Source: an uncultured Polaribacter sp. (GTDB lineage Bacteria; Bacteroidota; Bacteroidia; Flavobacteriales; Flavobacteriaceae). From it: 64,000 nucleotides of DNA. The DNA lies in assembly GCF_947496195.1 (NCBI RefSeq), contig NZ_CANMBY010000001.1, forward strand, positions 682,001 through 746,000, in the 5' to 3' direction. The position numbers were made by a program, and so were the translations under genes. Below, piece by piece: positions 43,862 through 62,906 of the stretch; within the stretch, counting starts at the first letter, position 1; every line of letters begins with the position of its first letter. Below the pieces are notes generated by a model. It had not been told where the DNA came from. It saw only the letters and a program-made list of their open reading frames with translations, and ran no database searches.

Positions 43862-44824
43862 TTATTGAAACATGTAGTATTTTTGTGTACATCTTGCCAG
43901 ACTTTCTCTCTTCATAAAGTCGTATCCAAGAGTTATCATATGTGATCCCACATTAAAACTCTGAGTGTTATTTATATTAATACCAAAACCATAAGACGCA
44001 TACAAGTTTCCTGATTTAAGACCAATTAAAGGTGCAATAGTATTAGGGTTTAACAACTGATCATTTAAGAAATTATAAGTAAATCCTGCCCAAATATATC
44101 CACTAGAAGTTCTTTTTCTAACTTTTAAGTTTAAGTCTGTTCTAGACCTTTGATCTCCTTCAAAATATTCAACTAAAATTGAAGGTTCAATTTCATAATC
44201 GCCATAAAAACGCGTAAACACATAATAATTATATAGTGAGTATCTTCTTAAAATTACAGGCTCTCCATTAGAAAAAAAACGGTCTTTTTTATCTAGTAAA
44301 TTAGATACATTGAAACTTACTCCATAATCATTAAAACGATAAAGAAAACTTACATCGAAATTTGAAGAATTAAAATTAAGCTGATTGTTTAATCCTACAT
44401 CTAAATCATCGAAAGTGGATGCATCTATATTAAACATTACCAGGCTGTAGGTAAAACCAAATGAAAAAAAACTCTCATTAACTTCACTTAAAATTAAATG
44501 ACTTGCAAATGTAGCTTTTAATCCTTGTTGAGAGGTGTTACCATTGGCATCTTTAAAGATGACAAGGCCACCACCAAACCTATCTCCTAATCTACTTTCT
44601 ATAGATAAAGATTGGGTTTGTGGTGCATTTTTAATACCCACCCATTGAGTTAAACCATTTAAACGAAGACGCATACCAGAACCAATGCCTACATATGCAG
44701 GTGTAATTACAAAAGGGTTGTCTCCTAAATAGTTTAAATATTGAGGTAAATTTACTTCTTGTGCGTTAGTATTTAAACTAAAAAGTACTGTTAGAATTAA
44801 GATATATATTTTTTTCATGTTCAT
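43862..44824 (-). CDS. PorP/SprF-family type IX secretion membrane protein (partner of giant adhesin)
   Basis: A signal peptide (MNMKKIYILILTVLFSLNTNAQ) precedes a beta-barrel-like body. PorP/SprF features include LPQYLNYLGDNPFVITPAYVGIGSGMRLRLNGLTQWVGIKNAPQTQSLSIESRLGD over residues about 24-80, and repeated amphipathic strands. SprF proteins are outer-membrane partners needed for the export or surface attachment of SprB-type adhesins. It starts 7 bp after the giant adhesin stop, so it should serve that protein. Confidence 0.93.
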   Translation of the reverse strand: MNMKKIYILILTVLFSLNTNAQEVNLPQYLNYLGDNPFVITPAYVGIGSGMRLRLNGLTQWVGIKNAPQTQSLSIESRLGDRFGGGLVIFKDANGNTSQQGLKATFASHLILSEVNESFFSFGFTYSLVMFNIDASTFDDLDVGLNNQLNFNSSNFDVSFLYRFNDYGVSFNVSNLLDKKDRFFSNGEPVILRRYSLYNYYVFTRFYGDYEIEPSILVEYFEGDQRSRTDLNLKVRKRTSSGYIWAGFTYNFLNDQLLNPNTIAPLIGLKSGNLYASYGFGININNTQSFNVGSHMITLGYDFMKRESLARCTQKYYMFQ

Positions 44825-44831
44825 TAATCAA

Positions 44832-47800
44832 TTATCTGTATAGTGTAAAATTGCCCATTAATCTTCTTCTTTTTTGAGGTGTTTGGTTGTAATAAATTAC
44901 ATACCAATAGTCACCTGATGGTAGAGGTCTATTATTGTATAAGCCATCCCAACCCTCTACAATTCCTTTATAAGTTTTTAAAAGTCTGCTGTATCTATCA
45001 TATATTTTAACCTCTATATTATGATAGTCTTTTACCTTTTTAGGATACCAATAATCATGTTTACCATTTCCATTTGGGGTAAAGAAATTAGGGATATCTA
45101 TATCTATAAAAATGCCTTCTATAACTAGGCTTACTAAACACCCTCTACTATCTTTTACAGCAATTGTATAAAAACGAGTCTCGCTAATTACAAACTCATT
45201 ATTTGAAGTAAAATCACCATTATCTATGCTGTAAGTATAGGGTGGTACACCACCAGAAGCATTTGCAATTAAAGTGTTTTCTTTAGAAGTATCGATATCT
45301 AACTTTAACTCTGGTTTATCTTCTATTATAATAGTCTTAGTAACAGAACAACCGTTTTTATGAGTCGCTTTAATAAGATATTCTCCTTTAGGTAAGTTTG
45401 TAAAAATACCATCTGTTTGTGGGTTAGCACCATTAATGGTGTAGGTAACATCACCTTCATAAAGATCATCTACTAATGCAAAGACATTAGCATCGTTTGT
45501 ACAGTTATATTCTGGTTGAAGTACTAAATCTAAATCAACACCTTTTTCTATATCTACACTAAAAGAAGTTTCACAGTCATTGCTGTCTTTTACAAAAACA
45601 GTATAGGTATTTCCGCCTTCTAAATCAGAAAAAGAAAATTGATTTTGAACATAATTACCATTATCTAACTTAACGAAATAAGGTGCATTACCTCCTTGAA
45701 CATCAATTTCAAAACTACCTTTTTCGGTTGTAGCACATCCTACTTGTTGAATTGTTTTTAAAGAAACTTTTATTTCTTCAGTTTCGTTAATAATTACATC
45801 AGTAGAAACACGAGTACAATCTAATTCGTCTTTAACAGAAATTTGATAGGTACCTTTAGCAAGGTTATTAAAAGTAGCATTAGTTTGAAAGTTAACACCA
45901 TCTATAGTATAAAGAATTGTTCCTTGACCACCAGAAGCATTTACAGTAACAGACCCTGAATTTTCACCAAAACAAAGAATGTCTGTTGGAGTAACAGTAT
46001 CAATTGTAAGAGGAGTAGGGTTATTTATAATTACTTGCTCAGAAACAGAGCAACCGTTTTTATGTGTGGTTAAAACAGTATATGTTCCACTTGCTAAGTT
46101 TTCAAAAATATTTGAAGTTTGAGTAGCCCCATTGTTTAAGCTATACACAACATCATCTTTTAAAGCAGCATCAACATTGACTTCTATTGTAGAAAGATAA
46201 TTAATACAGGTCACTGTTGATGTAGCTGTAGCTTGAAGATCTATAGCGTTTTCTAAAGTAACTTCAATAGAAGAAGTACAACCATTGTTATCTTCAACAT
46301 CAACTTTGTAAGTTTTACCACCTTCTAAATTAGAGAAAGTTAGTTGATTATTTACAAAAGCAGCGCCATCTAAACTTGTTTTATAAGGAGCATTACCACC
46401 AGAAATAGTTAATTCGAAAGCCCCGTCTTTTTGATTAACACAAGATTCTTGTTGTATAATAGATGCAGTTACGTTAACAGCAGTAGGTTCATTAATAATT
46501 ACATCAGTAGAAACACGAGTACAATCTAATTCGTCTTTAATAGTAATTTGATAGGTACCTTTAGCAAGGTTATTAAAAGTAGCGTCTGTTTGGAAGTTAA
46601 CACCATCTATACTGTACATAAGATTTCCTTGACCACCAGAAGCATTTACAGTAATAGACCCTGAATTTTCACCAAAACAAAGAATGTCTGTTGGAGTAAC
46701 AGTATCAATTGTAAGAGGAGTAGGGTTATTTATAATTACTTGTTCAGAAACAGAGCAACCATTACTGTGAGTTGCAGTTATAGTATATGTTCCACTTGCT
46801 AAGTTTTCAAAAATATTTGAAGTTTGAGTAGTTCCATTGTTTATACTATATAACACATCGTTTTTTACATCATCATTAACATTAGCTTCTATTGTAGATA
46901 AATAATTTACACAACTTAATGCAGTTGCAGTAGATAAATTTACAGTTACAGCATTTTCTAAAGGTACAGCTATAAAAGTCTCACATCCTTTTGCATCTTC
47001 TATAAAAACTACGTAAGTTTTACCACCTTCTAATCCAGTAAAAGTAAGTTGATTTTCTATGTATGCACCACCATTTAAACTTGTTTTAAAAGGAGCAGTA
47101 CCTCCTGTAATATCTAATGTAAACGCACCATTTTTATCACCAGAACATAATTCTTGTTGAATATTAATTGCTTGTGCAGTTAATTCATTTGGTTCTGTAA
47201 TTGTTACAGATTCTGTTTTAAAACAACCCCTTTCATCTTGCACAACAACATCATAAACACCTGCAGAAAGGTTTAAGAATACATTACTTTCTTGGTATTT
47301 AACTTGGTCTATACTATATAATAATTTACCAGTACCACCAGAAGCATTTACAATTATACTACCATCTTCACTACCAAAACAAGAGATGTTGTTTACCTGA
47401 ACAGGAGTTGTAATTGCGATAACAACTGGCTCAACAATTTCATAGCTATTAGTTACAAATACACAATCTTTACTAAATACTTTTATTTTATAAATTCCTG
47501 CTGATAAATCAGCAAAAGTATCATCACTTTGTTGAGGTCTTATAATTGCATCATTTTCATCTAATAATTGATACGTATAGTTTCCAAAACCACCTGAAGC
47601 ATTTGCTTTTAACACAGCATTACTTTCACCAAAACAAGTTATTTGAGAAGCAGAGGTGTCTAATGTTGCTGTTAATGGAGCTACGTTTTCTATTTCTACA
47701 ATTGCAGAAGCATCAGAAATACAACCATTACTGTCTTTAGCATAAAACTGATGTAAGCCAACAGCAACATCAAAGGTATTTGCGGTGCTAAAATTGACTC

Positions 47801-50800
47801 CGTCTTTACTATAGGTGTAACCTCCAGAACCACCAGTTGCAGACACTGTAACACTAGCCGAATTTACTGAACATGAAATGGTTGTTGTAATAGATGCAGA
47901 CGCTATTACAGTTGAAGGGTTATCTATAGTTATAGGATATGATTTACTACATGAGTATTCATCAGAAATAGTTACTGTGTAGTTTCCTGCTGCTAAATTA
48001 TTAAAAGTATTGTTAGTTTGTTTTGCAGAGATTACTCCATTTTCTTTTTGCAATTGATAATAGTAAATCACAGGATTTCCTTGACCACCTGTTACAGTAT
48101 TTACTGTAATTGATGCATTATCATCGTCAAAACAAACTAAAGGAGTTGCATCTAAGGTCGCTGTAATTTCTGTAGGGTTTGTAAAAACAACAGACTTATC
48201 TACAACACAACCTAATTGATCTCTTACAGAAATTATATAACTATCAGCCACTAAATTTGTAAACGAATTTGTGTTTGAAAAGTCTTGAATAATAGTACCT
48301 GTTGATGTCGCTAATTTATATTGGTACTCTAACCAACCACCAAAAGCACTTACCAAAATTGATCCGCTATTTGTAGTATCACAATTTATTGGATTAGTTG
48401 TATAAGTAAAATCTAAAGCACTTGAAGGAGATTCAATAGAAAAAGGACTTGAATCTACCACACAGAAAGGGAAATCTAATTGTGTTACTCTAACAAAAAA
48501 TTCTCCTTCAGGTATTGAGTTTATTGTTGTTTTCCCACTATTTGTTCCACTTATTGAGGTTGCTGTATTAGTGTTATTATCAATTAATACATAGTTGTAA
48601 TTGTCTGAATAAAGAGTAGTTGCATCAAATTCAAAAGAAATACTACCTGAGTCATCATTAAAACAAGTGTTATCTTTTTCTTTAGTAACTACTAATTCAA
48701 ATTCATTTGGCTCATCAACTTCGTAGATGGTTTCTAAGAAACAATTCGTATCTAAATTAGTTACTCTTATTGTATAAATACCAGCAATTAAATTAGTAAA
48801 TACACCAGTAGTATTTGTATCAGAAAATCCACTTGTATTTGTTATTAAATAAGATTTGTTTGCTGAATTAACCTCTGCATTTGTATTTACAGTTATAGAT
48901 GCTCCTGTGTTACAGTCAGCTAACTTGTCTGTAACTATAGAAATATCTGTTAAAGGATTAAATGGATTTATGATCGCACTTGTAGATCCAAGACATCCTT
49001 TATCATCATAAACGTTTATAGTATAATTACCTCCGTTTTTATCATTTGAAGTAAAAATTGGATTATTATTAAATTGTACTACAACATCATCTGAAGCATC
49101 TGCAGTTCCTTGATTATTTATAAATTCAAATAATGTATAATTTCCACTTCCACCTGTAATTGATGCAGTATCAATAGTTATACTAGCTGTGTTACTAATA
49201 TTACCTATTGAACAAGAAAATTGTGAAACAAATGGAGTAGCTACATTAATTAAGGCCAACTCATCTATAACAATATTTATAGAGGTTGATGTACAAGCAT
49301 TATCTGCTGTTGCTGTTACTTGATAAGAACCTGGGGTTAAATTTGTAAAACTATTTGAGGCTGCATCAAAACTACCAACATTTGGTAAAATTGTATAGCT
49401 GTAATTTATTGCTGAATTTGTGTTGGTTAATTTTATTACTCCTTCATTACTTCCAAAACAAGTACTATTTTGAACTTCATAAGTAAATGTGGGTTCTTCT
49501 TTTTCAAGAATTTCGACATCTATAGATTTTGAACAATTTGTAATATTATCAAAAAGTGTAATCGTATAAACTCCAGAATTAGATAACTGAATTGTTTCAG
49601 TTGGATTTGTAAATGTTCTTCTAGAAATTATAGTTGTATTTACAGCATTTTTAACTTCAATATCAACATCACTAGAGCTATCTAAAAGATTAATTTCAAT
49701 AGTAGCGTCTGCAGTTAAAGAACAATCTAAATTTTTTGTTATAGCTGCTTCAAAATTTAAACTTGGATGCACTATAACAGCTTCAGATAAACTAATACAA
49801 CCATTGCTATCTATAACTTTAACTGTATAATTACCTTCTGCAACATTATTAAAAGTAGCATCAGATTGATAGTTTACTCCATTATCAATAGAATAAAAAT
49901 AAGGAGCTAAACCATTTGTTGCTGAAATAGTGATGCTTTTATTTGTATCACAAACATCAGTTGTAATGGTTTGTATTTCTGGTTTTTGACTTACATTTAA
50001 AACTACATTTCCAAGATCTTTAGCACAATCTGAACCATCTGTTACTGTTACATTTATTGTTGATGAAATAGTATTATCTACTAAGTTGTTAATATCAACT
50101 TCTATAGCAGTATTTTGTGTTGTTATTGGATTCACAAAGTTAGAACTTGTAAGCGTAAATTGGTAGTTGCCAAATCCACCAGAAAGTGAATTTATTGTTA
50201 TAATTCCTGGTTGATTACAAGTAATATCTCTAGTAACGATTGCATTCCCATTGATTTCTAAACCTCTGTTTATAGTTTCAGTTCTGCTTCCCCAAGAACA
50301 TAAATTGTTAGTTATCACTAAATAAAAATCACCTGCAGGTAAATTAGAAACAACAATATCATTGGTATTGTTTTGAGAGCCATTTCTAATTGCAGTGTTT
50401 GTATTTGCATCAAACAATTGCCAATTAATTGTTCCGCTTAAAATATTATTAGAATTGTCTATACTAAAAGTAATTTCTCCTGTATCTGAAGTAGCACAAG
50501 CTTCTTTAGTAACTGTACTAGTAATATTTACATCAGGAGTAAAATTATCATATACATCTACACTATTTTCTTTAATACAACCACTAGCATCTCTTACGTA
50601 AAATAGATAAGATAATCCTGGAATTAAGTTGGTAAAGGTATATGAATCTGATCCTGAAGTAACCCAGTTAGTTGTAGAATTAATCGAAAATTCGTAAGGT
50701 GCAACTCCATCTTGAGCTTGTACAATTGCTTGAAAACCATCTGCACAATTACCACTTGCATTTGCACTAACAATTAAGTTAGATACTTCAAAAGGCATTC

Positions 50801-53800
50801 TAAAATTATCTAAAGGTTTTATACACCTAACTGTTACACCATCAGTTTCTAATAAACGCAACATTGGTTTTAAAATAGTGCCAGATGCAATACCCATATA
50901 ATTTGTATTCGTAGACCAAGAAGTTCCATTATCTATAGAAAACTGTAAAGTGTAAGGAGCATAATTTTCTGTAACTACAAAATCAATTCCATATTGATTG
51001 ATATCTGTTACACCACAAGTTGGTAATATTGGGCTAATAGTTGCTTCTAACTCTTTTGGATTTTCTATTACTGCAGTAATTTGTTTCGTACAATTATTAG
51101 CATCTGTAACAGTAATAGTATAAGTGTCTGCAACTAAATTAAAGTACTCTTTTGTACTTGAAAAAATTGAAGAATTAGTATCTGAAAACCCTAAAGTATT
51201 TGTTACAGAAACAGTATAAGGTAATTTTCCCCCAGAAAAAGTTAAGTCTAAATTACCTGTTTCATTAAAACATTTAGGTTGAGTTTCATTTGCAGTAACA
51301 TCTAAATCTGGTGTTTTAGTAATGGTTACTGTTTCAGAGAATTCACAATAATTTGCAGCTCCATTTTTATCTCTCACATACACATCATAATTACCAGCTG
51401 TGTTTACAGTAGCTGTATTGGTTGATGAAAAGTTAGCAGCAGAAATTGTACTTCCTGATGTTACTATTGCATACACATAATTAGAATCTCCACCAGTTGC
51501 GTTTACAGTAATTGAACCATCATTACAGCTAATATCAGTAGCTAAAACAGCAGCATTTAATTGCGGATTAATGATTAAATTTTCTTCTGCAACCTCACAA
51601 GAGTAAGCGTCTTTAACACTTACTTTATATGTATCTGGTTGAAGATTGTTAAATGTAAATTGATTTGGAGTTGCACTGTTTGGAGATTGCCAAGGACCAT
51701 CATTTACACTAAAAACATAGCCTCCATTACCATCTGTAACTGTAATATTTATGGCTCCATTGTTGCCATTAAAACAATTTGTAACTGTAGTATTAAATAA
51801 TATATCTTTTGGACTATCAACAACAACATTTGCATTTATAGTTGAGATACAATCATTAGCGTCTTTTGCTATTACTGTATAATTACCAGCTAAAATATTA
51901 GTTAAATTGTTTACCCAAGTAACACCATTATCAATTGAAAATAGATAGGGAGCAGTACCTCCTGAAGCAGAAGCTGTAATTGTTGCACCTGTATTTGAAC
52001 AAGAAATTTCAGTAGCAATAGTTGCTGTTACATTAATTTCATCTGGTTCAGAAATTATAGCATCTCCTAAATCAATGATACAACTATCAGATTGAATCTT
52101 AATATTATAAGTACCCTGACTAAGATTATTAAGTATAAGTTGTGATGTGTTTGCTGTTACCCAAGTACCATTATTTATGGCATAAGTATAATCTGCACCA
52201 AAATTTTCTACATCTATAGTTATACTGCCATTTGCATCGCCAAAACAAGTTGCATTTGTAGAATTACTTATAAACCCATTAAATGCTTTATTAGGAAGTA
52301 CATTAAAATCTATGGTTTCTAAACAGTTTTGACCAATATTGATTTTTACAACATGATTTCCTTCAGGTAAATTTGAAAACGTATTAGAACTTGTAAACGC
52401 ACCTCCATTTAAACTATATGTAAATGTTGCGTTTGCAGGAAGAATTTCTACACTACCTAAACCATCACAATTGTAATTTATAGAACTTGTAAAAGTTGGT
52501 GCAATTGGTAAAGGATTAACAACAATATTTGGTAATTGTAACAAACAATCATTAGCATCTTTTATAAAAGGAGTATAAGTACCTTCTTGAATATTATTAA
52601 AAGTAAAAGAAGTAAAATAATTAACACCATCTAAACTATAGGTATATGGTGCTGTGCCTCCAGTAACTGAATCAAAAGAAATTACTCCATCTGCATCACA
52701 AGTATAATCTTGACTTAATGTTGCGTTTCCAGAAATCACAGTGGGTTCAGAAATGGTAATTGTTTTTTCATAAGCACAAGTGTCTATACTTTTAATAGCA
52801 TTAATTAAAATTTTATAATTCCCTGCACTTAAATTAGAGAACAGATTTTCTGTCTGATAAGTAGCACCATTATCTATACTATAACTAAAGTCATAATTGT
52901 TTAAGGGTTCGTTTGGTGATATTAAAACACTACCATTACTATCTCCATTACAACTAACATTTTGTATAGTTTCAGAAAATGTAAAAGGGGGTTCTAGTTC
53001 TATTGTTACTGGGTTAGAAAACACAAAACAATTGTTGTTGTCTACCATTACAAATTCATAAGTACCTTCATTACCAGGAGTAATTTCTAAGAAAGAATTC
53101 GTAAAAAACTCGATAATGGGAATGGTATTAACATTCGCATATTTTTGCACACCATTATAAGACCAAATAGCATAATTATACAAAGGAGTTCCTCCTGTTG
53201 TATTAAATTCAATCATACCATTAGTACAACTTATATCTTTAGTTGCAACTGCAGAAAAAGTAATTGGATCTGGTTTTATTATTTCTACTGTACCTTCGAA
53301 AGTACAATTATTAGGGGCTGAAACTTTTACAGTATAAGTACCTTCATCAGATACCTGAAAAGTATGATCATTATCTGCTTTTGGAGCAGTTTCTACCAAT
53401 AAATTTCCATCTTTTAAAAGTTGATAAATGTATTCCCCATCAACATTATTTACTTGTACTCTAATAGTTCCATCATCTTCTGCACATTGTATGGGTTCTA
53501 CAATTAAATCAACTTCAATATTTTTTTCGAAAACGTCAATTACAGGTAATTCATAAACACAAGATGTTGCAATACCACCTTTTTTTCTAATGTAAACAGT
53601 GTAACTACCTGCAGAGGTAATTGTAAAAGAATTATCATCTTGAAAAGTGTTTATATCATTAGTTAAACTAAATTGGTAATCGTCTGAAATGTTATTGATT
53701 GTAATGTTTCCTGGAGTGCCACAAATAATATCTGTTTTATCTACTAGAGGGTTAATTGATGCTTGAAAAACATCAAAATAATAACGCTTAAAACAACCAC

Positions 53801-55934
53801 CTTGAGCTCTAATTTCTAACCTAAATCTTCCTGGTTCGTTTGCTACATAGTCATTGCCTGTTTTTATGGTGTTCCATGTGCAAGAATTATTTGTGTTAGG
53901 ACAACTTTCATCATCATTATCTGTACAAGAATTTTCGTCTAATTTTTGCCAAATAAGTGTATTTGAATTAAAAATATTAGTTTGTATAAGTTTAGTGCTT
54001 TCTGAACCACATAAATAAATTTCTGATAATGTAGAACCATCATCTACACAGGTTTTAATTTCATCTGCAAAATTTATAATTGGGTTTGGTTGATTGATAA
54101 ATGAAACAACATTTATTATTTCTTGGCTACTAATACAACCAACAGGTGCAACTTTATCTACAGTATATCTACCTGTTTGAGATACAAAAATAGATTGTGT
54201 AGTTCCAATAATATTACCTGCACTATCTTTCCAAGTATAAGATAAAAAGCCAGAACCAGCAGTAAGTTCTACTTTGTCTGTACAAAGTACCTCTTCTCTT
54301 TCATAAGTACACTGATCTACATCTACTAAAAAGTTTGATGGCCCCTCAAAGCCTCTATTACAATTATCTACACCAAAATAACTAGGAGTATTGTTTGTAG
54401 TAACTCCGTTTATTTTACCAGTATAATCTACAAAAGCTTGATTTTGAATAATGTTAGAACAAACATCTCTTAACTCATTACAAGATTCTACTACTTTTAC
54501 TTTAAGTCTAATATTATATGTTGGATCTCCTTTTTCTACTAAATTGTCAGGTATAGTAAATATTAATTCCCCTCTAAATTGATTTGCTATTGTTGGTGCT
54601 TGATAGGTATAAGTTACACCTGCAGGAACAACAACTTCACTTTCAAAAAGATCTACATTTTTAGGAAGTCTGTCTACAATTTGTGTTAAAGTAGCATCAT
54701 CATTTCCTTTATTTCTAAAAGCAATATTATACCAAATTTCATTACCTAAAGTAACATCTCCACCAGCAATATCATTACCATTTACATCTTCTATGGTTTT
54801 TATAAGTTCTATATCTGGTTCAATAATTTCGACACTCATAGCATTTAAAAACACCCAATAACCATCCCCACTTGTGGTTAATCTTATATTTGCATCTGTT
54901 TGATTGTTTGCAATTAGTTGATTGTTAATATTGTTTAAATCAAATAAATCTGCATCAAAACCTAAAGTATTTTGGCTGCTAGGATTTCTATTAGCTAAAT
55001 ATTGATCGTTAATTGTAATAGAGCCATTAAAAAAGTTTCTTACAGGGTTTGTGTTTGGGGTTGATAAAGATTGATAAGTACCATTTACATCTTGAAAAGT
55101 AAAACGATCTCCTCTAATAGACTTATCACCTTCTAAAGCTGCTACTAGCATTTTTGCTCTTACAGGTCCAGTTGGTATGGTTTTAAATCCAGAATAGTTT
55201 ACTTCTGCATTTACAGAGTTAGACCCTCCTTTAACTGCTGTAAAACCATCAAAAATAGAAACTCTTCTAGTTGGCTCAAGTTCGTTTTCATAGATAACTA
55301 CTAATATCCAACCTGCAGAAGAACCAGTATTACTACTACCTCTAACTGTTGCTTTTATGTTTGCTGCAAAATAATCTCCATTAGGTGAGTCTTGAGCACC
55401 AACTATACCTGTTATATCTTTAAAGCATGTATAAACAACTTTTTCATTGTCACTTGGTAATGTTAACCCATCAAAAATAACCTCACCAGTTACATCTTGA
55501 TAAGAATCGTTTGGTAGTTTAAACTTAATGGTATTTACATCTGGGTCTCTAGTACTATTTACATCATTCCATAATTTTCTTGGATATACAGCAGACCAAT
55601 ATAAACCTGCAAATACAACTTTAGAACAACCAGGTAAGTTTAGCTGAGCTTTACTTGACGAGAAAGTTGTAGGATCGTTATCTACATCTATATAATCTAA
55701 GTTTAATCGATTATTACTTTCACTACCATTATAATTGTCATTAGGTACTGTACCATCTTGACTTTTACTAACAATACTGTTAGCAATAAATGTAATGTCT
55801 CCTTTTAAATTTACTCCACCATTTTGTAGCCTTTGTTTAAAAGGAACAAACGTTTGTGAATATGTGAAATTTGCCATGCAAACTATTGCAATACACGAAA
55901 GCAATAGAGTCTTTAATTTTGAGAAAGTATTCAT
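44832..55934 (-). CDS. Giant SprB-repeat surface adhesin with type B T9SS sorting domain (3700 aa)
   Basis: A signal peptide (LLLSCIAIVCMANFTYSQ) sends the protein to the periplasm. Residues about 27-360 form a conserved beta-rich N-terminal module and about 365-500 a DUF11-like domain (IELIKTIEDVNGND, NIAFRNKGNDDATL). From about 890 to 3570 run roughly thirty SprB-type repeats, each with a Cys, a SGG-T-xYxYSxD core and an end like LxAGxYxVxVxDxxGC. The final 87 residues (from IPNFFTPNGNGKHDYW) are the gliding-motility-associated type B sorting domain. It probably decorates the cell surface for adhesion or gliding. PorP/SprF genes lie on both sides. CCCCCC sits 4 nt before the ATG. Confidence 0.95.
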   Translation of the reverse strand: MNTFSKLKTLLLSCIAIVCMANFTYSQTFVPFKQRLQNGGVNLKGDITFIANSIVSKSQDGTVPNDNYNGSESNNRLNLDYIDVDNDPTTFSSSKAQLNLPGCSKVVFAGLYWSAVYPRKLWNDVNSTRDPDVNTIKFKLPNDSYQDVTGEVIFDGLTLPSDNEKVVYTCFKDITGIVGAQDSPNGDYFAANIKATVRGSSNTGSSAGWILVVIYENELEPTRRVSIFDGFTAVKGGSNSVNAEVNYSGFKTIPTGPVRAKMLVAALEGDKSIRGDRFTFQDVNGTYQSLSTPNTNPVRNFFNGSITINDQYLANRNPSSQNTLGFDADLFDLNNINNQLIANNQTDANIRLTTSGDGYWVFLNAMSVEIIEPDIELIKTIEDVNGNDIAGGDVTLGNEIWYNIAFRNKGNDDATLTQIVDRLPKNVDLFESEVVVPAGVTYTYQAPTIANQFRGELIFTIPDNLVEKGDPTYNIRLKVKVVESCNELRDVCSNIIQNQAFVDYTGKINGVTTNNTPSYFGVDNCNRGFEGPSNFLVDVDQCTYEREEVLCTDKVELTAGSGFLSYTWKDSAGNIIGTTQSIFVSQTGRYTVDKVAPVGCISSQEIINVVSFINQPNPIINFADEIKTCVDDGSTLSEIYLCGSESTKLIQTNIFNSNTLIWQKLDENSCTDNDDESCPNTNNSCTWNTIKTGNDYVANEPGRFRLEIRAQGGCFKRYYFDVFQASINPLVDKTDIICGTPGNITINNISDDYQFSLTNDINTFQDDNSFTITSAGSYTVYIRKKGGIATSCVYELPVIDVFEKNIEVDLIVEPIQCAEDDGTIRVQVNNVDGEYIYQLLKDGNLLVETAPKADNDHTFQVSDEGTYTVKVSAPNNCTFEGTVEIIKPDPITFSAVATKDISCTNGMIEFNTTGGTPLYNYAIWSYNGVQKYANVNTIPIIEFFTNSFLEITPGNEGTYEFVMVDNNNCFVFSNPVTIELEPPFTFSETIQNVSCNGDSNGSVLISPNEPLNNYDFSYSIDNGATYQTENLFSNLSAGNYKILINAIKSIDTCAYEKTITISEPTVISGNATLSQDYTCDADGVISFDSVTGGTAPYTYSLDGVNYFTSFTFNNIQEGTYTPFIKDANDCLLQLPNIVVNPLPIAPTFTSSINYNCDGLGSVEILPANATFTYSLNGGAFTSSNTFSNLPEGNHVVKINIGQNCLETIDFNVLPNKAFNGFISNSTNATCFGDANGSITIDVENFGADYTYAINNGTWVTANTSQLILNNLSQGTYNIKIQSDSCIIDLGDAIISEPDEINVTATIATEISCSNTGATITASASGGTAPYLFSIDNGVTWVNNLTNILAGNYTVIAKDANDCISTINANVVVDSPKDILFNTTVTNCFNGNNGAINITVTDGNGGYVFSVNDGPWQSPNSATPNQFTFNNLQPDTYKVSVKDAYSCEVAEENLIINPQLNAAVLATDISCNDGSITVNATGGDSNYVYAIVTSGSTISAANFSSTNTATVNTAGNYDVYVRDKNGAANYCEFSETVTITKTPDLDVTANETQPKCFNETGNLDLTFSGGKLPYTVSVTNTLGFSDTNSSIFSSTKEYFNLVADTYTITVTDANNCTKQITAVIENPKELEATISPILPTCGVTDINQYGIDFVVTENYAPYTLQFSIDNGTSWSTNTNYMGIASGTILKPMLRLLETDGVTVRCIKPLDNFRMPFEVSNLIVSANASGNCADGFQAIVQAQDGVAPYEFSINSTTNWVTSGSDSYTFTNLIPGLSYLFYVRDASGCIKENSVDVYDNFTPDVNITSTVTKEACATSDTGEITFSIDNSNNILSGTINWQLFDANTNTAIRNGSQNNTNDIVVSNLPAGDFYLVITNNLCSWGSRTETINRGLEINGNAIVTRDITCNQPGIITINSLSGGFGNYQFTLTSSNFVNPITTQNTAIEVDINNLVDNTISSTINVTVTDGSDCAKDLGNVVLNVSQKPEIQTITTDVCDTNKSITISATNGLAPYFYSIDNGVNYQSDATFNNVAEGNYTVKVIDSNGCISLSEAVIVHPSLNFEAAITKNLDCSLTADATIEINLLDSSSDVDIEVKNAVNTTIISRRTFTNPTETIQLSNSGVYTITLFDNITNCSKSIDVEILEKEEPTFTYEVQNSTCFGSNEGVIKLTNTNSAINYSYTILPNVGSFDAASNSFTNLTPGSYQVTATADNACTSTSINIVIDELALINVATPFVSQFSCSIGNISNTASITIDTASITGGSGNYTLFEFINNQGTADASDDVVVQFNNNPIFTSNDKNGGNYTINVYDDKGCLGSTSAIINPFNPLTDISIVTDKLADCNTGASITVNTNAEVNSANKSYLITNTSGFSDTNTTGVFTNLIAGIYTIRVTNLDTNCFLETIYEVDEPNEFELVVTKEKDNTCFNDDSGSISFEFDATTLYSDNYNYVLIDNNTNTATSISGTNSGKTTINSIPEGEFFVRVTQLDFPFCVVDSSPFSIESPSSALDFTYTTNPINCDTTNSGSILVSAFGGWLEYQYKLATSTGTIIQDFSNTNSFTNLVADSYIISVRDQLGCVVDKSVVFTNPTEITATLDATPLVCFDDDNASITVNTVTGGQGNPVIYYYQLQKENGVISAKQTNNTFNNLAAGNYTVTISDEYSCSKSYPITIDNPSTVIASASITTTISCSVNSASVTVSATGGSGGYTYSKDGVNFSTANTFDVAVGLHQFYAKDSNGCISDASAIVEIENVAPLTATLDTSASQITCFGESNAVLKANASGGFGNYTYQLLDENDAIIRPQQSDDTFADLSAGIYKIKVFSKDCVFVTNSYEIVEPVVIAITTPVQVNNISCFGSEDGSIIVNASGGTGKLLYSIDQVKYQESNVFLNLSAGVYDVVVQDERGCFKTESVTITEPNELTAQAINIQQELCSGDKNGAFTLDITGGTAPFKTSLNGGAYIENQLTFTGLEGGKTYVVFIEDAKGCETFIAVPLENAVTVNLSTATALSCVNYLSTIEANVNDDVKNDVLYSINNGTTQTSNIFENLASGTYTITATHSNGCSVSEQVIINNPTPLTIDTVTPTDILCFGENSGSITVNASGGQGNLMYSIDGVNFQTDATFNNLAKGTYQITIKDELDCTRVSTDVIINEPTAVNVTASIIQQESCVNQKDGAFELTISGGNAPYKTSLDGAAFVNNQLTFSNLEGGKTYKVDVEDNNGCTSSIEVTLENAIDLQATATSTVTCINYLSTIEVNVDAALKDDVVYSLNNGATQTSNIFENLASGTYTVLTTHKNGCSVSEQVIINNPTPLTIDTVTPTDILCFGENSGSVTVNASGGQGTILYTIDGVNFQTNATFNNLAKGTYQISVKDELDCTRVSTDVIINETEEIKVSLKTIQQVGCATTEKGSFEIDVQGGNAPYFVKLDNGNYVQNQFSFSDLEGGNTYTVFVKDSNDCETSFSVDIEKGVDLDLVLQPEYNCTNDANVFALVDDLYEGDVTYTINGANPQTDGIFTNLPKGEYLIKATHKNGCSVTKTIIIEDKPELKLDIDTSKENTLIANASGGVPPYTYSIDNGDFTSNNEFVISETRFYTIAVKDSRGCLVSLVIEGIFIDIDIPNFFTPNGNGKHDYWYPKKVKDYHNIEVKIYDRYSRLLKTYKGIVEGWDGLYNNRPLPSGDYWYVIYYNQTPQKRRRLMGNFTLYR
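45787..46165 (-). repeat. Internal direct repeat of the giant adhesin, copy A
   Basis: This stretch (about residues 3257-3383) is nearly identical to 46492-46870, exactly 705 bp (235 codons) away. The shared peptide includes DTVTPTDILCFGENSG and VNFQTNATFNNLAKGTYQ. It marks a recent in-frame duplication of about three SprB repeats. Confidence 0.85.
46492..46870 (-). repeat. Internal direct repeat of the giant adhesin, copy B
   Basis: This is the partner of the copy at 45787-46165, offset 705 bp (about residues 3022-3148). Between and beyond the near-identical cores the similarity falls off, so the recombination or duplication edges should lie close to these limits. Confidence 0.85.
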
Positions 55935-55938
55935 ATTT

Positions 55939-55944
55939 GGGGGG
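55939..55944 (-). promoter_or_regulatory. CCCCCC run in the giant adhesin's leader
   Basis: On the minus strand AAACCCCCCAAAT immediately precedes the ATG, in the 20-bp gap after the PorP/SprF-SPOR gene. It takes the place of a ribosome-binding site and recalls C runs before the AraC gene and the Ig-repeat gene. Confidence 0.35.
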
Positions 55945-55954
55945 TTTATGAATG

Positions 55955-57466
55955 TTAATTTTCAACTTGTAAAATCCATTTTTCGTGAATGTATTTACCA
56001 TTCACATTATTATAGATTAATTTTAATATTTCTTTTTTGTCTTTTGAATACGATATATAAACGTATCTATATTTTTTTATGGGATGAATAAAGTAATTAG
56101 GCGTTAAATTATTTTTTTCTAATTCTTTTATAAATGATTCTGCATATCTTTTTCTAGCAAAAACATTTACAATTAGGTAAAAACCTTCTTCTAATTCTTT
56201 ACTATTTTTTATTACTTCTGTTTTTGGCTCATAAGGTTTTTTATTTTCTACTTTTAAACTATCTTTTATTTCTAAGCCTGCTTTATTTTTAAGAATTGAT
56301 CTTGTGTTGCTTTTATTTAAAGAGTCTTTTGCAATAATTTTTTTGTCATCTTCTTTTGTAAGAGTATCATTTACATTATTGTAGGTGTTGAGCTTATTGG
56401 CTAAACTATCTTTTTGTTTTAATGTGTTCTTTTCTTTAGCTTTTATTTGAGTTTTACTTGTTTTTAATGTGTCTTTTACAATAATTTTTTTGTCATCTTC
56501 TTTTATAATAGGCTTTGAATTAGTATCGGTTTTTAGTGTAAAACTATAATTTATTGGGTTTTTTGGTTTTTTTGAGAAAGAATAAATAATTCCAATTTCA
56601 CTAGTTGGGCCTAAATCATTTTTACCAGTTTCATAAACATAAGAAACGGCCACTTTTTGCGATAATCTAATTCCTACTCCTGCAGAAGAACTAAAAAAGC
56701 CATCATAACCACCTTGTAACCAACCCAATTTTGGTAGATCTAACAGAATATTTCCTGTAAAACTACTATTGGTGTTATGGTTAGCACTATAAAAAAATCG
56801 TAATACCCCATCTTCTAATAATTTAATATTACTATTTAAAGGCTCTGAATATTGGGCATGTACAGAATAAGCTTTTTCTGATAAAGGGGTAATAAATTCA
56901 CCTTCTTTAATATTATAATCTACAACATCTCTTAAATGAATACCTATATTAAATTTACCATAGTTATAGCTTAAAGCAGTTTGTAATATAATATTTGTTT
57001 TTTCTTGAAAGTTAAAAATTACTGGATCTGAAGTTGGGTCTAAAATTCTTGTTCTATCTATATTTATATGACTAAACATAAAATTAAAGCCAAGAGAAAG
57101 ACTACTTTTAGTACTTAGTTTTATTCTGTAAGCATAGTTAGCAATAGCACCAAAGTTTGTAAAAACTCCAATTGTTTGTCTGTAAACTCCAACACCTGCT
57201 CCAATGTTTTCACTAATTTTTCCAGAAAAACCAAGAATGTTAACAACAGGTGAATCTTCGAAACCAATAAAACTATTTCTACTTAATAGTGCTATTGATT
57301 TACCTGTTTCATTTACCACTGTAAAAGTAGGGTTTAGCAAGTAAGTATTTTGTTTCACAAAACTTTGAGAAGAAAATCTGTTAAATATTTTTTCTACAGA
57401 ATCTTGCGAATACAGTGAGGTTACTGTACATAATAAAATAATGATATGTCGTTGTTTTTTAATCAT
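55955..57466 (-). CDS. PorP/SprF-family protein fused to a SPOR-like domain
   Basis: After a signal peptide (HIIILLCTVTSLYSQ) residues about 20-300 form the PorP/SprF barrel (KQNTYLLNPTFTVVNETG, SYVYETGKNDLGPTSEIGIIYSF). A Lys/Asp/Ser-rich linker (about 310-430) contains a repeated KEDDKKII-KD-L unit. The C-terminus is SPOR-like: EEGFYLIVNVFARKRYAESFIKEL and RYVYISYSKDKKEILKLI. SPOR domains bind denuded peptidoglycan, so the protein may tie the outer-membrane partner to the wall. It starts directly after the Ig-repeat protein's stop. Confidence 0.9.
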   Translation of the reverse strand: MIKKQRHIIILLCTVTSLYSQDSVEKIFNRFSSQSFVKQNTYLLNPTFTVVNETGKSIALLSRNSFIGFEDSPVVNILGFSGKISENIGAGVGVYRQTIGVFTNFGAIANYAYRIKLSTKSSLSLGFNFMFSHINIDRTRILDPTSDPVIFNFQEKTNIILQTALSYNYGKFNIGIHLRDVVDYNIKEGEFITPLSEKAYSVHAQYSEPLNSNIKLLEDGVLRFFYSANHNTNSSFTGNILLDLPKLGWLQGGYDGFFSSSAGVGIRLSQKVAVSYVYETGKNDLGPTSEIGIIYSFSKKPKNPINYSFTLKTDTNSKPIIKEDDKKIIVKDTLKTSKTQIKAKEKNTLKQKDSLANKLNTYNNVNDTLTKEDDKKIIAKDSLNKSNTRSILKNKAGLEIKDSLKVENKKPYEPKTEVIKNSKELEEGFYLIVNVFARKRYAESFIKELEKNNLTPNYFIHPIKKYRYVYISYSKDKKEILKLIYNNVNGKYIHEKWILQVEN

Positions 57467-60400
57467 TTATTTTATGATGTTTATTGTGCCTTTTTTAATA
57501 ATACTTTTATCATCTCTTATTATATAGAAATACAGACTAGCTGTTTTTACATTATTTTCTGGCCAATTATTTTGGTAATTTTTTTGTTTAAGAACAGTTC
57601 TACCTCCAATCGAAATAATTTCTACTTCAATATTATTTTTAAAAGCAAATTCAGGTGGTATTTTCCAAAAATCATTTACTCCATCTCCATTTGGAGTTAA
57701 AATATTTGGTACATATACATTACCAGAGATTACAATAACCGTAAACAATTTTTCTACAGAACAACCATTTAAATAAGCTACAACCCTATAATTACCTGCT
57801 TTATTTATCTCAATACTAGATGAGGTTTCTATAATATTATCATTTTCATCAAACCACTCGTAAGTGTCTGCTCCACTTGCAGAGATTACTATAGATTCTC
57901 CTTCTTGTATCGTTATTTCATCATCAAAATTAAATTCAATAGAGTTTGCATCAAAAGAGTTAATAATTATTTCTTGTGAAGTTTTGCTACAAGAGAATCC
58001 TTTAGCTTCTATTCTATAATTACCAACTTCAGAAACTTTAAGAGTTGGGTTTGTTGCTCCTGTAATTGCTAAATCATTAAAAAACCACTGATAACTTAAT
58101 CCATTAATTTGTGCAGTTGAAAGAGTAATATCTTTGTTACTACAAAGTGAAAAAGTATTATCAATTGAAGTAACATTAATTTCTGGTAGCCCAAGTTTTA
58201 CGTCTAAAGTATTTGATGTTGAAGTTACAGAACCATTTATAATTTCAAGAAAATAGCTGCCATTTTCTTCATAATTATTGATAGTAATTTCGCTATTGGT
58301 AAATCCGTTAAGCAAATTATTGTCTTTATACCATTTAAATTCTAAAAGTGCTATTTGTGCTGAAGATAACTCATGTGTTGTACCATTAGTGTCTTTAGCC
58401 TGAATATTATCTAAAAAAAGATTTGTTTGTAAAGAAGAACATTCAGAATAGCTAGGTAAAGTTTTAATTATTGTTGTAAAACTATCAATAGCACTAACTG
58501 TAATAGCGTTTATAGTTTTGGTTTCAGAGCATCCATTTAAACTTTTTTCGACTTGAGCATAATAAACTCCTGCTTCTGTTACGTTTAAATTATTTGTATT
58601 TGAATTAGGTATTTCTACATTGTCTTTAAACCATGTTATTTCTGCATTTTGTGCATTATGAGAAACATTAAGAACCTTTGTTTCTCCTGCTAATATAAAT
58701 GTAGATGAAGATGTAGCTGTAGAAATAGCAAAATCACTATCAAAATTTTCAATAGTATACTCGCTAGATTTTTTAGAACATCCATCTTGGTTGGTAACTT
58801 CAATTTGATACAAGCCTCCAGTTGTGATTTCTATATTAGTTCCTGTTGCATTTGCAATAGCAGAGCCGTTTAAAAACCATTGATAGGAAACACCATTTTG
58901 CTGAGTTGAACTCAACCTTATTTGCTTAGAGTCACAATATGTGTTTGTATGATCATTAGAAGTAATAACTGGCTCAAGAACTCCTAATTTTACTGCTACA
59001 GTATTTGACTGAGATTTTACAGTACCATTAGAAATTTCAAGAGAATAATTACCATTTTCTACATGAGAATTTATTGTAATTTGATTACCAGAAAAACCAT
59101 TAAGAGAATTATTGTTTTTGTACCAATTAAAATTTAATAAACTAATTTGATCATTAGTTAAGTCATAAATATTTTGATTTACATCTCTAGCTTTTACACT
59201 TTCTAATAATAATTGAGTTATTGTAGAGGTACACTCTGAATAATCAGGTAATGTTTTAATAGTTACATTAAACCCATCAACAGCACTAACAACCATACTT
59301 TCAGAAGTTTTAGTTTCTGAACAGCCATTTACAGTATTTTTTACTGTTGCATAATAAATACCAGGTTCAGTTATGGTTAAATTAGTAGAATTAGCATTAG
59401 GTATTTGAACACTATTTTTAAACCAATTGATTTCAGCATTTTGAGCATTATGTGTAATTTCTAAGACCTTAGTCTCTCCTGATAGAATAAATGCTGGACT
59501 TGAGTTAATGTTAATTGAAAAATCACTATTTACATTGGTTATACTAATTTCATTAGAATTACTAATACATCCTTTTGAGTTAGATAACTCTACATGATAC
59601 ACTCCTGCTTGTGTAATTTGTAAAGTATTGTTTGTTGCATTAGATATAGCTGTGTTATTTAAATACCATTGGTAATTTAAACCATTTATCATATCAGCTG
59701 TAAGTGTAATTTGTTTATTGTCACAGTAAGTATTTGTTGAATCATTGCTAGTAATTTCAACTTCAGGCAATTTTAAATTAACGTCTAAATGATTTGAATT
59801 AGAAGCAACTACGCCATTAGAAACTTCAAGAAAGTAATCACCATTATTTTCATAACCATTAACGTTAATTTGCTGGTTAGTAGCACCATTTAATAAAAGA
59901 TTATTTTTAAACCATTTAAAATTTAATAAAGCTATTTGGCTATTAGTTAAGCCATGAGAAACATCATTTACATCTATCGCTTTTACTAATTCTAATTGTA
60001 ATTGTGCTGTAGTAGAAACACATGCTGTATAATTTGATGTTGTACCAATATTTACTTCAAAGCTTTTAAAATTATTAACAATAATACTATCAGAAGTTTT
60101 AGTTTCTGAGCAATTATTTACTGTACTTTTAACAGTAGCAAAATAAGTTCCAGGCTCGTTAATATTTAAATTAACTGAGTTAGAATTTGGTATTTCAATG
60201 TTATTCTTATACCAAATAATTTCAGCATTTTGTGCATCATGAGTAATAGAAAGCACTTTAGTTTCTCCTGATAAAATATTTATAGGAGTAGCTGTATTTA
60301 TATTTACAGAAAAATTGGTGTTAACGTTGTTAATTGAAACTTCATTAGATGTGTAAGTACAACCAAATTCATTGGTAATTTCTAAAGAATAAGTGCCAAA

Positions 60401-61204
60401 ATCTGCTGCATTTGAAATATTTATTGATGGAGAATATGCAGGTAAATTATTAATTTTTACCCCATCTTTAAACCAACTATAAGTGTATAAATTATTACTT
60501 ACAGAGGCTTCAAGTGTGTATGATTCATTTTCACATAAGTAAACATTAGAGTCACCAATAATTTTAGCTTCTACAGCATCACCTATATTTACCTCTACAA
60601 TATTAGATGTTGCAGGCGAATTACAAGCCCCATAGTATATTTCACAATAATATAATCCTGGCTCATCAACAGTTATTGAAGTACCTCCTAATGTAAATTT
60701 TTGTCCATTTTTGTACCATTGTAGATTGTTTGTAGTAGCAGTAGCTACACTTATTTCTTTAGATTCACCTTCGCAAAGTGTTACGTTTTCAAAATTATTT
60801 AGCACTAAGTTTTCTAATGACATAAAATAAGCTTCAAATGCATCAGATTCTGGGCTAATTTTTTCTGGAGAGGATGATTTTACTCGAATTTTATAATCAC
60901 TACCTGCAGTATTTTGAGGTATGCTAAAAGTTGTAGTAAATCTAAAAGTATTGTTTTGGTTTGATATTGTTTTTATAGCAGTTGGCGAAGAAAAATCACC
61001 AGAAGCGTCTGAAAGTTCTAAAGTAAAAGTGTTATCTGTATTAAAGGTAGCAGCTATGTAAGTCACCTCAACATCATACATGTTAAAGGAATTGCTTGCA
61101 CAAGCATTCGTAAATTTTAAAACAGGCTTTAAAAGTTCTTGTGATTCAAGAACTTGAGACGCGAGTAATAAAAGGAGTATTATGGGGGCACCTTTTCTAA
61201 TCAC
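57467..61204 (-). CDS. Ig-like repeat surface protein with type B T9SS sorting domain (1245 aa)
   Basis: A signal peptide (APIILLLLLASQVLESQ) is followed by an N-terminal beta domain and then Ig-like modules with YxWYxNxxxI and CSxxS patterns. Three long repeats of 263-264 residues follow, each with GETKVL, WFKNxVxIPNxN, ECxxxxTQL and YCDxKQI blocks. The last about 85 residues (VPNILTPNGDGVNDFWKIP to the end) are a type B sorting domain, so T9SS carries it to the surface. It is the first gene of a four-gene operon and abuts its PorP/SprF-SPOR partner. Confidence 0.93.
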   Translation of the reverse strand: MIRKGAPIILLLLLASQVLESQELLKPVLKFTNACASNSFNMYDVEVTYIAATFNTDNTFTLELSDASGDFSSPTAIKTISNQNNTFRFTTTFSIPQNTAGSDYKIRVKSSSPEKISPESDAFEAYFMSLENLVLNNFENVTLCEGESKEISVATATTNNLQWYKNGQKFTLGGTSITVDEPGLYYCEIYYGACNSPATSNIVEVNIGDAVEAKIIGDSNVYLCENESYTLEASVSNNLYTYSWFKDGVKINNLPAYSPSINISNAADFGTYSLEITNEFGCTYTSNEVSINNVNTNFSVNINTATPINILSGETKVLSITHDAQNAEIIWYKNNIEIPNSNSVNLNINEPGTYFATVKSTVNNCSETKTSDSIIVNNFKSFEVNIGTTSNYTACVSTTAQLQLELVKAIDVNDVSHGLTNSQIALLNFKWFKNNLLLNGATNQQINVNGYENNGDYFLEVSNGVVASNSNHLDVNLKLPEVEITSNDSTNTYCDNKQITLTADMINGLNYQWYLNNTAISNATNNTLQITQAGVYHVELSNSKGCISNSNEISITNVNSDFSININSSPAFILSGETKVLEITHNAQNAEINWFKNSVQIPNANSTNLTITEPGIYYATVKNTVNGCSETKTSESMVVSAVDGFNVTIKTLPDYSECTSTITQLLLESVKARDVNQNIYDLTNDQISLLNFNWYKNNNSLNGFSGNQITINSHVENGNYSLEISNGTVKSQSNTVAVKLGVLEPVITSNDHTNTYCDSKQIRLSSTQQNGVSYQWFLNGSAIANATGTNIEITTGGLYQIEVTNQDGCSKKSSEYTIENFDSDFAISTATSSSTFILAGETKVLNVSHNAQNAEITWFKDNVEIPNSNTNNLNVTEAGVYYAQVEKSLNGCSETKTINAITVSAIDSFTTIIKTLPSYSECSSLQTNLFLDNIQAKDTNGTTHELSSAQIALLEFKWYKDNNLLNGFTNSEITINNYEENGSYFLEIINGSVTSTSNTLDVKLGLPEINVTSIDNTFSLCSNKDITLSTAQINGLSYQWFFNDLAITGATNPTLKVSEVGNYRIEAKGFSCSKTSQEIIINSFDANSIEFNFDDEITIQEGESIVISASGADTYEWFDENDNIIETSSSIEINKAGNYRVVAYLNGCSVEKLFTVIVISGNVYVPNILTPNGDGVNDFWKIPPEFAFKNNIEVEIISIGGRTVLKQKNYQNNWPENNVKTASLYFYIIRDDKSIIKKGTINIIK
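57930..60310 (-). repeat. Three tandem 263-264-codon repeats
   Basis: The GETKVL codons recur at about 60261, 59472 and 58680, offsets of 789 and 792 bp. Each unit contains three Ig-like modules in fixed order. The units have diverged more than the near-identical repeat in the giant adhesin. Confidence 0.8.
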
Positions 61205-61854: not shown

Positions 61855-61895
61855 ATACATAAGAATTTTATGCATAAAAAAATTATGTATATTTG
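61855..61895 (+). promoter_or_regulatory. PadR operator-like array overlapping the -7 box
   Basis: ATACAT (61855-61860), ATGCAT (61870-61875) and ATGTAT (61885-61890) are spaced by exactly 9 bp each, making a symmetric array around a palindromic centre. PadR-family repressors typically bind ATAC/ATGT dyads. The right site overlaps the -7 box TATATTTG (61888-61895). Confidence 0.65.
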
Positions 61896-61899
61896 TTTT

Positions 61900-62238
61900 A
61901 TGGGAAATCAAAAATTATATAAAGGTTCTTTACAAACCATTATTTTAAAATTATTAGCTAGCCATTCTAAAATGTATGGTTATGAAATTACTCAGAAAGT
62001 AAAAGAATTAACTAAAGGAGAGCTTAATATTACAGAAGGTGCTTTGTATCCTGCTTTACACAAATTAGAAGCAGATGGTTTGCTAGATGTAGAGGTTGCT
62101 AAAGTGGGTAACAGATTACGAAAATATTATAAGTTAACAGAAAGAGGTACAAAAGAAACTGCCAATAAATTACAAGAAATGCAAGAGTTTTTAAAAACCA
62201 TGCAGCATTTAGTAAACCCAAAATTTAGTGTAGAATAA
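61900..62238 (+). CDS. PadR-family transcriptional regulator
   Basis: From ATG 61900 the protein has 112 aa and a winged helix: GSLQTIILKLLASHSKMYGYEITQKVKELTKGELNITEGALYPALHKLEADGLL over residues about 9-65, then the wing GNRLRKYYKLTERG. The GYEI and EGALYPALxxLE motifs define the family. The ATG at 61870 lies inside the operator array and before the -7 box, so it is not the start. The -7 box ends 4 nt before 61900, so the mRNA may be leaderless. It precedes three HAAS-like membrane protein genes, its probable partners. Confidence 0.92.
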   Translation: MGNQKLYKGSLQTIILKLLASHSKMYGYEITQKVKELTKGELNITEGALYPALHKLEADGLLDVEVAKVGNRLRKYYKLTERGTKETANKLQEMQEFLKTMQHLVNPKFSVE

Positions 62239-62249
62239 TTTTTGTAATT

Positions 62250-62906
62250 ATGGAATTAACTAAAAGCCAAATACAGCAAATAGACAACCGTTTAAAATCT
62301 GGTGGAATAAGATATTGGGATTTACGCCTTGAAATTATAGACCATATTGCAACAGATTTAGAGCAAAATTCAAAAAGTAATGACTTTAATAAAGAACTAA
62401 ACAATGCTTTAAAACGAATTGGTTACCTAAATAATTTATCAGCAGTAAATACAAAAGGTTGGCAAAATGTAAATAAATTTTATAGAAAGAGATATTTAGA
62501 TAATATTAAAACGTATTTAAAAAAACCATTGATTTTACTCTTAGTAGTTTTAAGTATAGTTATAAATTATTTTCTATTCGAATATCTACCATTAAAAACT
62601 TTTAAGCTACTTAACTTTTCTCTTTACATTATTTTTTCTATTCCTTTTTTTGTTTTAACCACAAAACTTTGGTTAAAGAAATATGGTAAATCTGTACACT
62701 TAGATTATGGTATTTTTTACTTCGGATTTGCTTTAATAATGATAAACTTACCTATACAGTTTGCTGGATATTTTGAAGCTATTTATCAAAAAATATTTTT
62801 AATACTATTGTTACCTATTTTTATATTGGCTTCAATTTCTGGGCATCAACTTTTTAATGAATCAATTCAAAAAGTAGAAAGAATTAGAAAAGAATTAAAT
62901 CTATGA
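62250..62906 (+). CDS. HAAS-like PadR-associated membrane protein, paralogue 1
   Basis: The N-terminal about 80 residues are a helical domain (LTKSQIQQIDNRLKSGGIRYWDLRLEIIDHIATDLE over residues 3-38) of the type found beside PadR genes (HAAS). About four or five membrane spans follow (from LILLLVVLSIVINYFLF at about 93). It starts 11 bp after padR and overlaps the next gene by 4 nt. Such proteins are thought to pass a membrane signal to PadR. It is the most divergent of the three copies. Confidence 0.8.
   Translation: MELTKSQIQQIDNRLKSGGIRYWDLRLEIIDHIATDLEQNSKSNDFNKELNNALKRIGYLNNLSAVNTKGWQNVNKFYRKRYLDNIKTYLKKPLILLLVVLSIVINYFLFEYLPLKTFKLLNFSLYIIFSIPFFVLTTKLWLKKYGKSVHLDYGIFYFGFALIMINLPIQFAGYFEAIYQKIFLILLLPIFILASISGHQLFNESIQKVERIRKELNL

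Follow-up and report, generated by a model that had tools for sequence, protein, structure and literature searches.

Two large secreted proteins that alternate on one strand with two PorP/SprF barrels raise the question of which barrel carries which protein, and of how a loaded carrier is held to the moving track of a gliding cell. The question was addressed here for one such locus in a window of 64,000 nucleotides (the whole stretch of DNA that was analysed). The reading that we favour, with a probability of about 0.82, is that the locus is the sprCDBF gliding operon, with SprF carrying SprB and, as proposed here, SprD carrying SprC.

Identity of the operon

This locus of a Flavobacteriaceae bacterium is not a new operon type; it is the sprC-sprD-sprB-sprF operon already known for producing and mounting the surface adhesins of gliding motility. 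The operon name is established in the literature, and in F. psychrophilum the operon is known as remFG-sprCDBF. While the identity of the operon was thus already known, the loss, in the lineage of this bacterium, of one of two cysteines in the components by which such adhesins, and also the secretion machinery, are clamped to the moving track is new. The features of the locus are the following.

57467..61204, minus strand: sprC homologue, 1245 aa, a secreted Ig-repeat protein with a GTG start; position and C-terminus as in relatives and F. johnsoniae
57713..60008, minus strand: three tandem units of ~263 aa in SprC (aa 399-1164), a direct repeat with spacings of 792 and 789 nt
57482..57712, minus strand: SprC sorting domain (CHU_C); PF13585 46.5 bits, cut-off 27
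55955..57466, minus strand: sprD homologue, 503 aa, a PorP/SprF barrel, low-complexity linker and one SPOR domain; TIGR03519 182 bits, model and homologue alignments
55958..56191, minus strand: SprD SPOR domain, about aa 426-503; pLDDT 94.8, PDB matches, PF05036 in homologues
44832..55934, minus strand: sprB homologue, 3700 aa, with SprB repeats; PF13573 337 bits, TIGR04131 96.7 bits
44835..45101, minus strand: SprB type B sorting domain, aa 3612-3700; TIGR04131 96.7 bits, over the cut-off of 35
43862..44824, minus strand: sprF homologue, 320 aa, the PorP/SprF carrier of SprB; PF11751 218 bits
43889..43891, minus strand: single SprF tail cysteine, Cys312, aligning with F. johnsoniae Cys326, with Ala at the place of Cys324

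The open reading frames, all four on the minus strand, confirmed the gene order and the intergenic gaps of 0, 20 and 7 bp that the first-pass annotation of this DNA had given. The range of 44832-61204 in which it placed the four genes holds the first three, and the fourth, sprF at 43862-44824, lies outside it. Both barrels exceed the curated cut-offs of PF11751 and TIGR03519, the 320-aa protein with 218 and 170 bits and the 503-aa protein with 151 and 182 bits, respectively.

The F. johnsoniae locus was located by using the sprD deletion primer of Shibata et al. 2023 (PMC9870892) as a probe. The primer had one match in 398 Flavobacterium genomes (genome G463, F. johnsoniae) and no match in the window's own genus, which is not Flavobacterium. 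The order in G463 is sprC, sprD, sprB, sprF, and the proteins are of the same kinds as in the window: an Ig-type SprC of 483 aa, a 1588-aa SprD with a barrel, a long coiled coil and a SPOR-like end, then SprB and SprF. The tail cysteines of this SprF are residues 324 and 326, in agreement with Liu et al. 2025 (PMC12635249). A profile search started with the window proteins picked up SprD and SprF of G463; SprC and SprB were identified as their neighbours, with C-terminal domains that match those of the window. Between the N-termini of the two SprB proteins there was no detectable match. The two operons are thus alike in gene order, domain kinds, contiguous or near-contiguous genes, sorting domains, PorP/SprF carriers and the SPOR end of SprD. 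They differ in the length of SprC (1245 compared to 483 aa), in SprD, which in the window has 503 aa and a short linker in place of the long coiled coil, and in the tail cysteines of SprF and PorG, single in the window and twin in F. johnsoniae.

The genes sprC, sprD and sprB also occur together in Maribacter, Arenibacter, Muricauda and Eudoraea. Since the order recurs across genera of the Flavobacteriaceae, the four-gene arrangement is not due to chance, and a chance joining of two unrelated adhesin modules was rejected. The other Flavobacteriaceae (Maribacter, Arenibacter, Muricauda and others) share with the window the sprC-sprD-sprB order and a SprC C-terminus of the type ...KQGTITVIR, but differ from it in a SprC of 727-780 aa, in having two SPOR domains in most of the named genera and in the SprF tail SNCRCTY.

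Unlike the remFG-sprCDBF operon of F. psychrophilum, the window has no remF or remG upstream. The F. psychrophilum operon is driven partly from a sigma-54 site; a consensus search upstream of sprC found no such site in the window. Upstream of sprC and divergent from it, at 61870-62906, lie the genes of a PadR-type regulator and of a membrane protein of 218 aa, the latter with no Pfam or NCBIfam match; in F. johnsoniae this place is taken by further genes of the operon.

SprC and its tandem units

SprC of the window is unusually long. The protein has 483 aa in F. johnsoniae, 727-780 aa in the full-length copies of the named genera and ~700-750 aa in most of the window's genus (usual overall range 480-780), whereas it reaches ~1220-1245 aa in the window and in the two genomes closest to it. 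The extra length is due to a tandem Ig unit of ~263 aa present in three copies (pairwise identity 56%, 43% and 42%), of which the third has diverged most and continues into the sorting domain; 1245 aa minus two such units leaves 719 aa. The first-pass annotation had described SprC as a giant. It is indeed a large Ig-repeat protein, but an ordinary SprC that has been enlarged by tandem units. The same annotation let both large proteins end in type B sorting domains, which is clear for SprB; for SprC the domain is type B-like and weak, scoring below the TIGR04131 cut-off (25.5 bits vs 35) and above that of CHU_C, whereas the SprB domain exceeds the two.

In the subclade of the window, sprC seems to be without an ATG start (window 61190-61204 and sister loci L267-L272). 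In four or five of the six genomes there is no ATG, GTG or TTG before the signal peptide. These genomes have in common an ATT or ATC at the equivalent place, and in the window GTG stands just before it. It is possible that sprC has a conserved AUU/AUC start, as in infC.

The SPOR domain of SprD

The Pfam SPOR model did not match the window SprD, even at E<10, although PF05036 was matched in 13 of the 14 members of the homologue set, the window SprD being the exception. As Pfam was blind on this protein, the domain was settled via homologues and structure: the part in question was predicted at pLDDT 94.8, and the three best PDB matches of its model are SPOR domains (1x60, 6ztg and 6i09, of CwlC, DedD and RlpA). 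The earlier description of the protein as a PorP/SprF-SPOR fusion was therefore right. There is one SPOR domain in the window SprD and in its two closest relatives and two in several others.

The model of the whole SprD is of no more than fair quality (pLDDT 64). Its barrel resembles outer-membrane barrels, among which is chain F of 8gl6, the type IX translocon complex of F. johnsoniae. Searches of PDB sequences with SprD and SprF gave no match. The mature SprD of the window has no cysteine, and the same is true for 64 of 68 operon copies. A comparable arrangement is PorE-PorP-PG1035 of P. gingivalis, in which a PorP barrel with a link to the cell wall likewise holds a type B substrate, but with wall binding on a separate OmpA-type protein, whereas in the window the SPOR domain is fused to the barrel (PMC9143113).

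A second SprD-like family of ~540-600 aa, lacking a sprC neighbour and in some cases having cysteines, was also observed (L054, L067, L069, L074, L075, L077 and similar loci). It is common in Allomuricauda, Flagellimonas and relatives.

Proposed pairing of carriers and adhesins

The first-pass annotation had paired SprC with the SPOR fusion and SprB with the plain PorP, and had named phylogenetic co-variation as a check. Distance matrices of the SprC sorting domain, the SprD barrel, the SprB sorting domain and SprF were compared for the complete sprCDBF quartets of 66 genomes, at least one of which is present under two handles, and partial correlations were calculated for each pair with the other two proteins held constant. 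Both neighbour pairs, SprC sorting domain with SprD barrel (0.665) and SprB sorting domain with SprF (0.680), were above all cross pairs (SprC-SprF 0.378, SprD-SprB 0.296, SprD-SprF 0.086, SprC-SprB -0.192). In the window's genus alone the values for the neighbour pairs were 0.698 and 0.709, respectively. The correlation of the SprC sorting domain with SprF was also positive, reaching 0.54 among the other genera.

The co-variation was domain-specific. The controls gave -0.01 for the SprC N-terminus against the SprD barrel, 0.07 for the SprC sorting domain against SPOR and, as a test of linkage, -0.12 for SprD against the N-terminus of SprB, the part adjoining sprD. These values close to zero fit an interface between sorting domain and barrel and speak against linkage alone, which was rejected as the cause on the basis of the SprB N-terminus. 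The proposed pairing is supported in silico, and with it SprD as the probable carrier of SprC; the support is that of a correlation and not proof of binding, and the co-variation and the joint loss described next would also be compatible with plain operon co-inheritance.

Among 47 genomes of the window's genus SprD and SprF are present in the same 19, and the other 28 have neither, a pattern that needs at least five changes on the PorG tree. In 149 genomes of the family, as read from tables, both occur in 89 and there are four exceptions: G022, G103 and G127, having a SprF-like protein without the cysteine pair, and G088, a fragmented assembly.

Tail cysteines of SprF and PorG

In the SprF of F. 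johnsoniae the bond to GldK is made through Cys326, with Cys324 as the residue that donates and resolves it; gliding stops on loss of either cysteine, and the Cys-X-Cys motif has been called invariant in close homologues (Liu et al. 2025, PMC12635249). PorG binds the same GldK cysteine, mainly via Cys225. The SprF tail of the window reads LARCTQKYYMFQ, compared to ISNCPCTQ in F. johnsoniae and SNCRCTY in most other genera. All 19 SprF proteins of the window's genus have ...ARCT..., i.e. Cys326 is kept and Cys324 is replaced by Ala. The periplasmic Cys-X-Cys was accordingly found in 0/19 proteins of the genus and in 103/104 rows elsewhere (a few genomes being counted twice in the latter), the lone exception being G030, with cysteines further apart.

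PorG has undergone the same change. All 43 genomes of the genus that were tested, together with G030, G022, G103 and G127 (47 clade genomes), encode a PorG with a single cysteine, Cys225 having been kept, compared to two tail cysteines in 20/20 genomes outside the clade. A single branch of the PorG tree, with 100/100 support, separates the two states, and this is thus one joint switch and not a replicated correlation. GldK of the window genome has kept its two non-lipid cysteines, Cys280 and Cys337.

It is about an even call that this clade changed its track-clamping set as a whole, SprF and PorG, the two known clients of the GldK track cysteine, having lost the resolving cysteine and kept the one bonding GldK, so that no internal thiol could undo the adhesin bond, and cysteine-free SprD riding via SPOR as a second, non-covalent route to the track. 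The SPOR domain is a candidate coupler of SprD to the track. The 2025 model requires two SprF cysteines, one bonding GldK and one donating and resolving, and a genus with the bonding cysteine alone in both SprF and PorG is a natural experiment on it. If these species glide on a one-cysteine clamp, the resolving step is dispensable or has been replaced; otherwise they would use SprB for something other than gliding. A SprD that has a SPOR tail and no cysteine further raises the question of how cargo could be carried along the track in the absence of a disulfide. Of these results, the single-cysteine clade most deserves to be followed up.

Proposed mechanism and alternative readings

In the favoured reading the SprB adhesin would cross the outer membrane via the type IX secretion translocon and pass to SprF, a barrel carrier of its own, which would hold it and whose periplasmic tail cysteine would bond GldK in the moving track. 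SprC would be handled likewise by SprD, of the same barrel family, with a SPOR periplasmic end instead of a cysteine tail. The basis within this analysis is the identity of the operon, its order and domains, the co-variation of sorting domains and barrels and the joint presence and absence of the carriers, and F. johnsoniae experiments demonstrate SprF carrying SprB while disulfide-bonded to GldK (PMC12635249). We infer that SprD is the carrier of SprC, possibly linked by its SPOR domain either to peptidoglycan or to the track; the SprF of this genus, with its single cysteine, probably still bonds GldK.

It is unlikely, though the most plausible of the alternatives, that the adhesins share carriers, SprF or an orphan PorP exporting both and SprD being a structural or peptidoglycan-binding part without cargo. 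An orphan PorP is present in the window genome (G000:C1:323047-324027), an orphan carrier of F. johnsoniae serves three orphan type B substrates (PMC12618676), and the SprC sorting domain correlates with SprF. The co-variation of that domain with the SprD barrel is, however, stronger and specific to barrel and sorting domain, and SprD retains a complete PorP/SprF barrel (182 bits). We consider it very improbable that a joint surface filament is built from SprC and SprB; the first-pass annotation had proposed one surface structure of the two. They share a single operon and are always retained or lost together, but their sorting domains do not co-vary and their carriers differ, leaving that proposal unsupported. 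Moreover, Rhodes et al. 2011 reportedly found SprB still secreted and propelled in F. johnsoniae with nonpolar mutations of sprC or sprD. SprC has been reported to move on the track in F. johnsoniae, and in single-molecule tracking of sprF C324A its movement was normal and that of SprB impaired (PMC12635249).

The latter mutant is also the starting point for a further reading, in which the SprF tail has decayed and gliding was lost, leaving the operon as a remnant or for static adhesion. Since the natural state of SprF in this strain equals that of the non-gliding C324A mutant, gliding of the strain is only putative, and most of the other genomes sampled in the genus lack the operon. We nevertheless regard decay as improbable. 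All four frames are open, close sister genomes retain them at 70-87% identity, and the cysteine kept is the GldK-bonding one, identical in 19/19 genomes, which is unlike decay.

Other type B proteins and PorP carriers of the genome

Two further PorP/SprF proteins, each with a single tail cysteine, are encoded in the genome (C1:323047-324027 and C3:41763-42713), one being the orphan carrier and the other adjoining a 1578-aa type B protein, and four further type B proteins are without an adjoining PorP. At G000:C1:608360-635392 (L044-L045) a larger type B adhesin of 8173 aa is followed by a PorP that has no cysteine in its tail and by an OmpA-like protein of the PorE type; such a layout has been proposed for static, wall-anchored adhesins.
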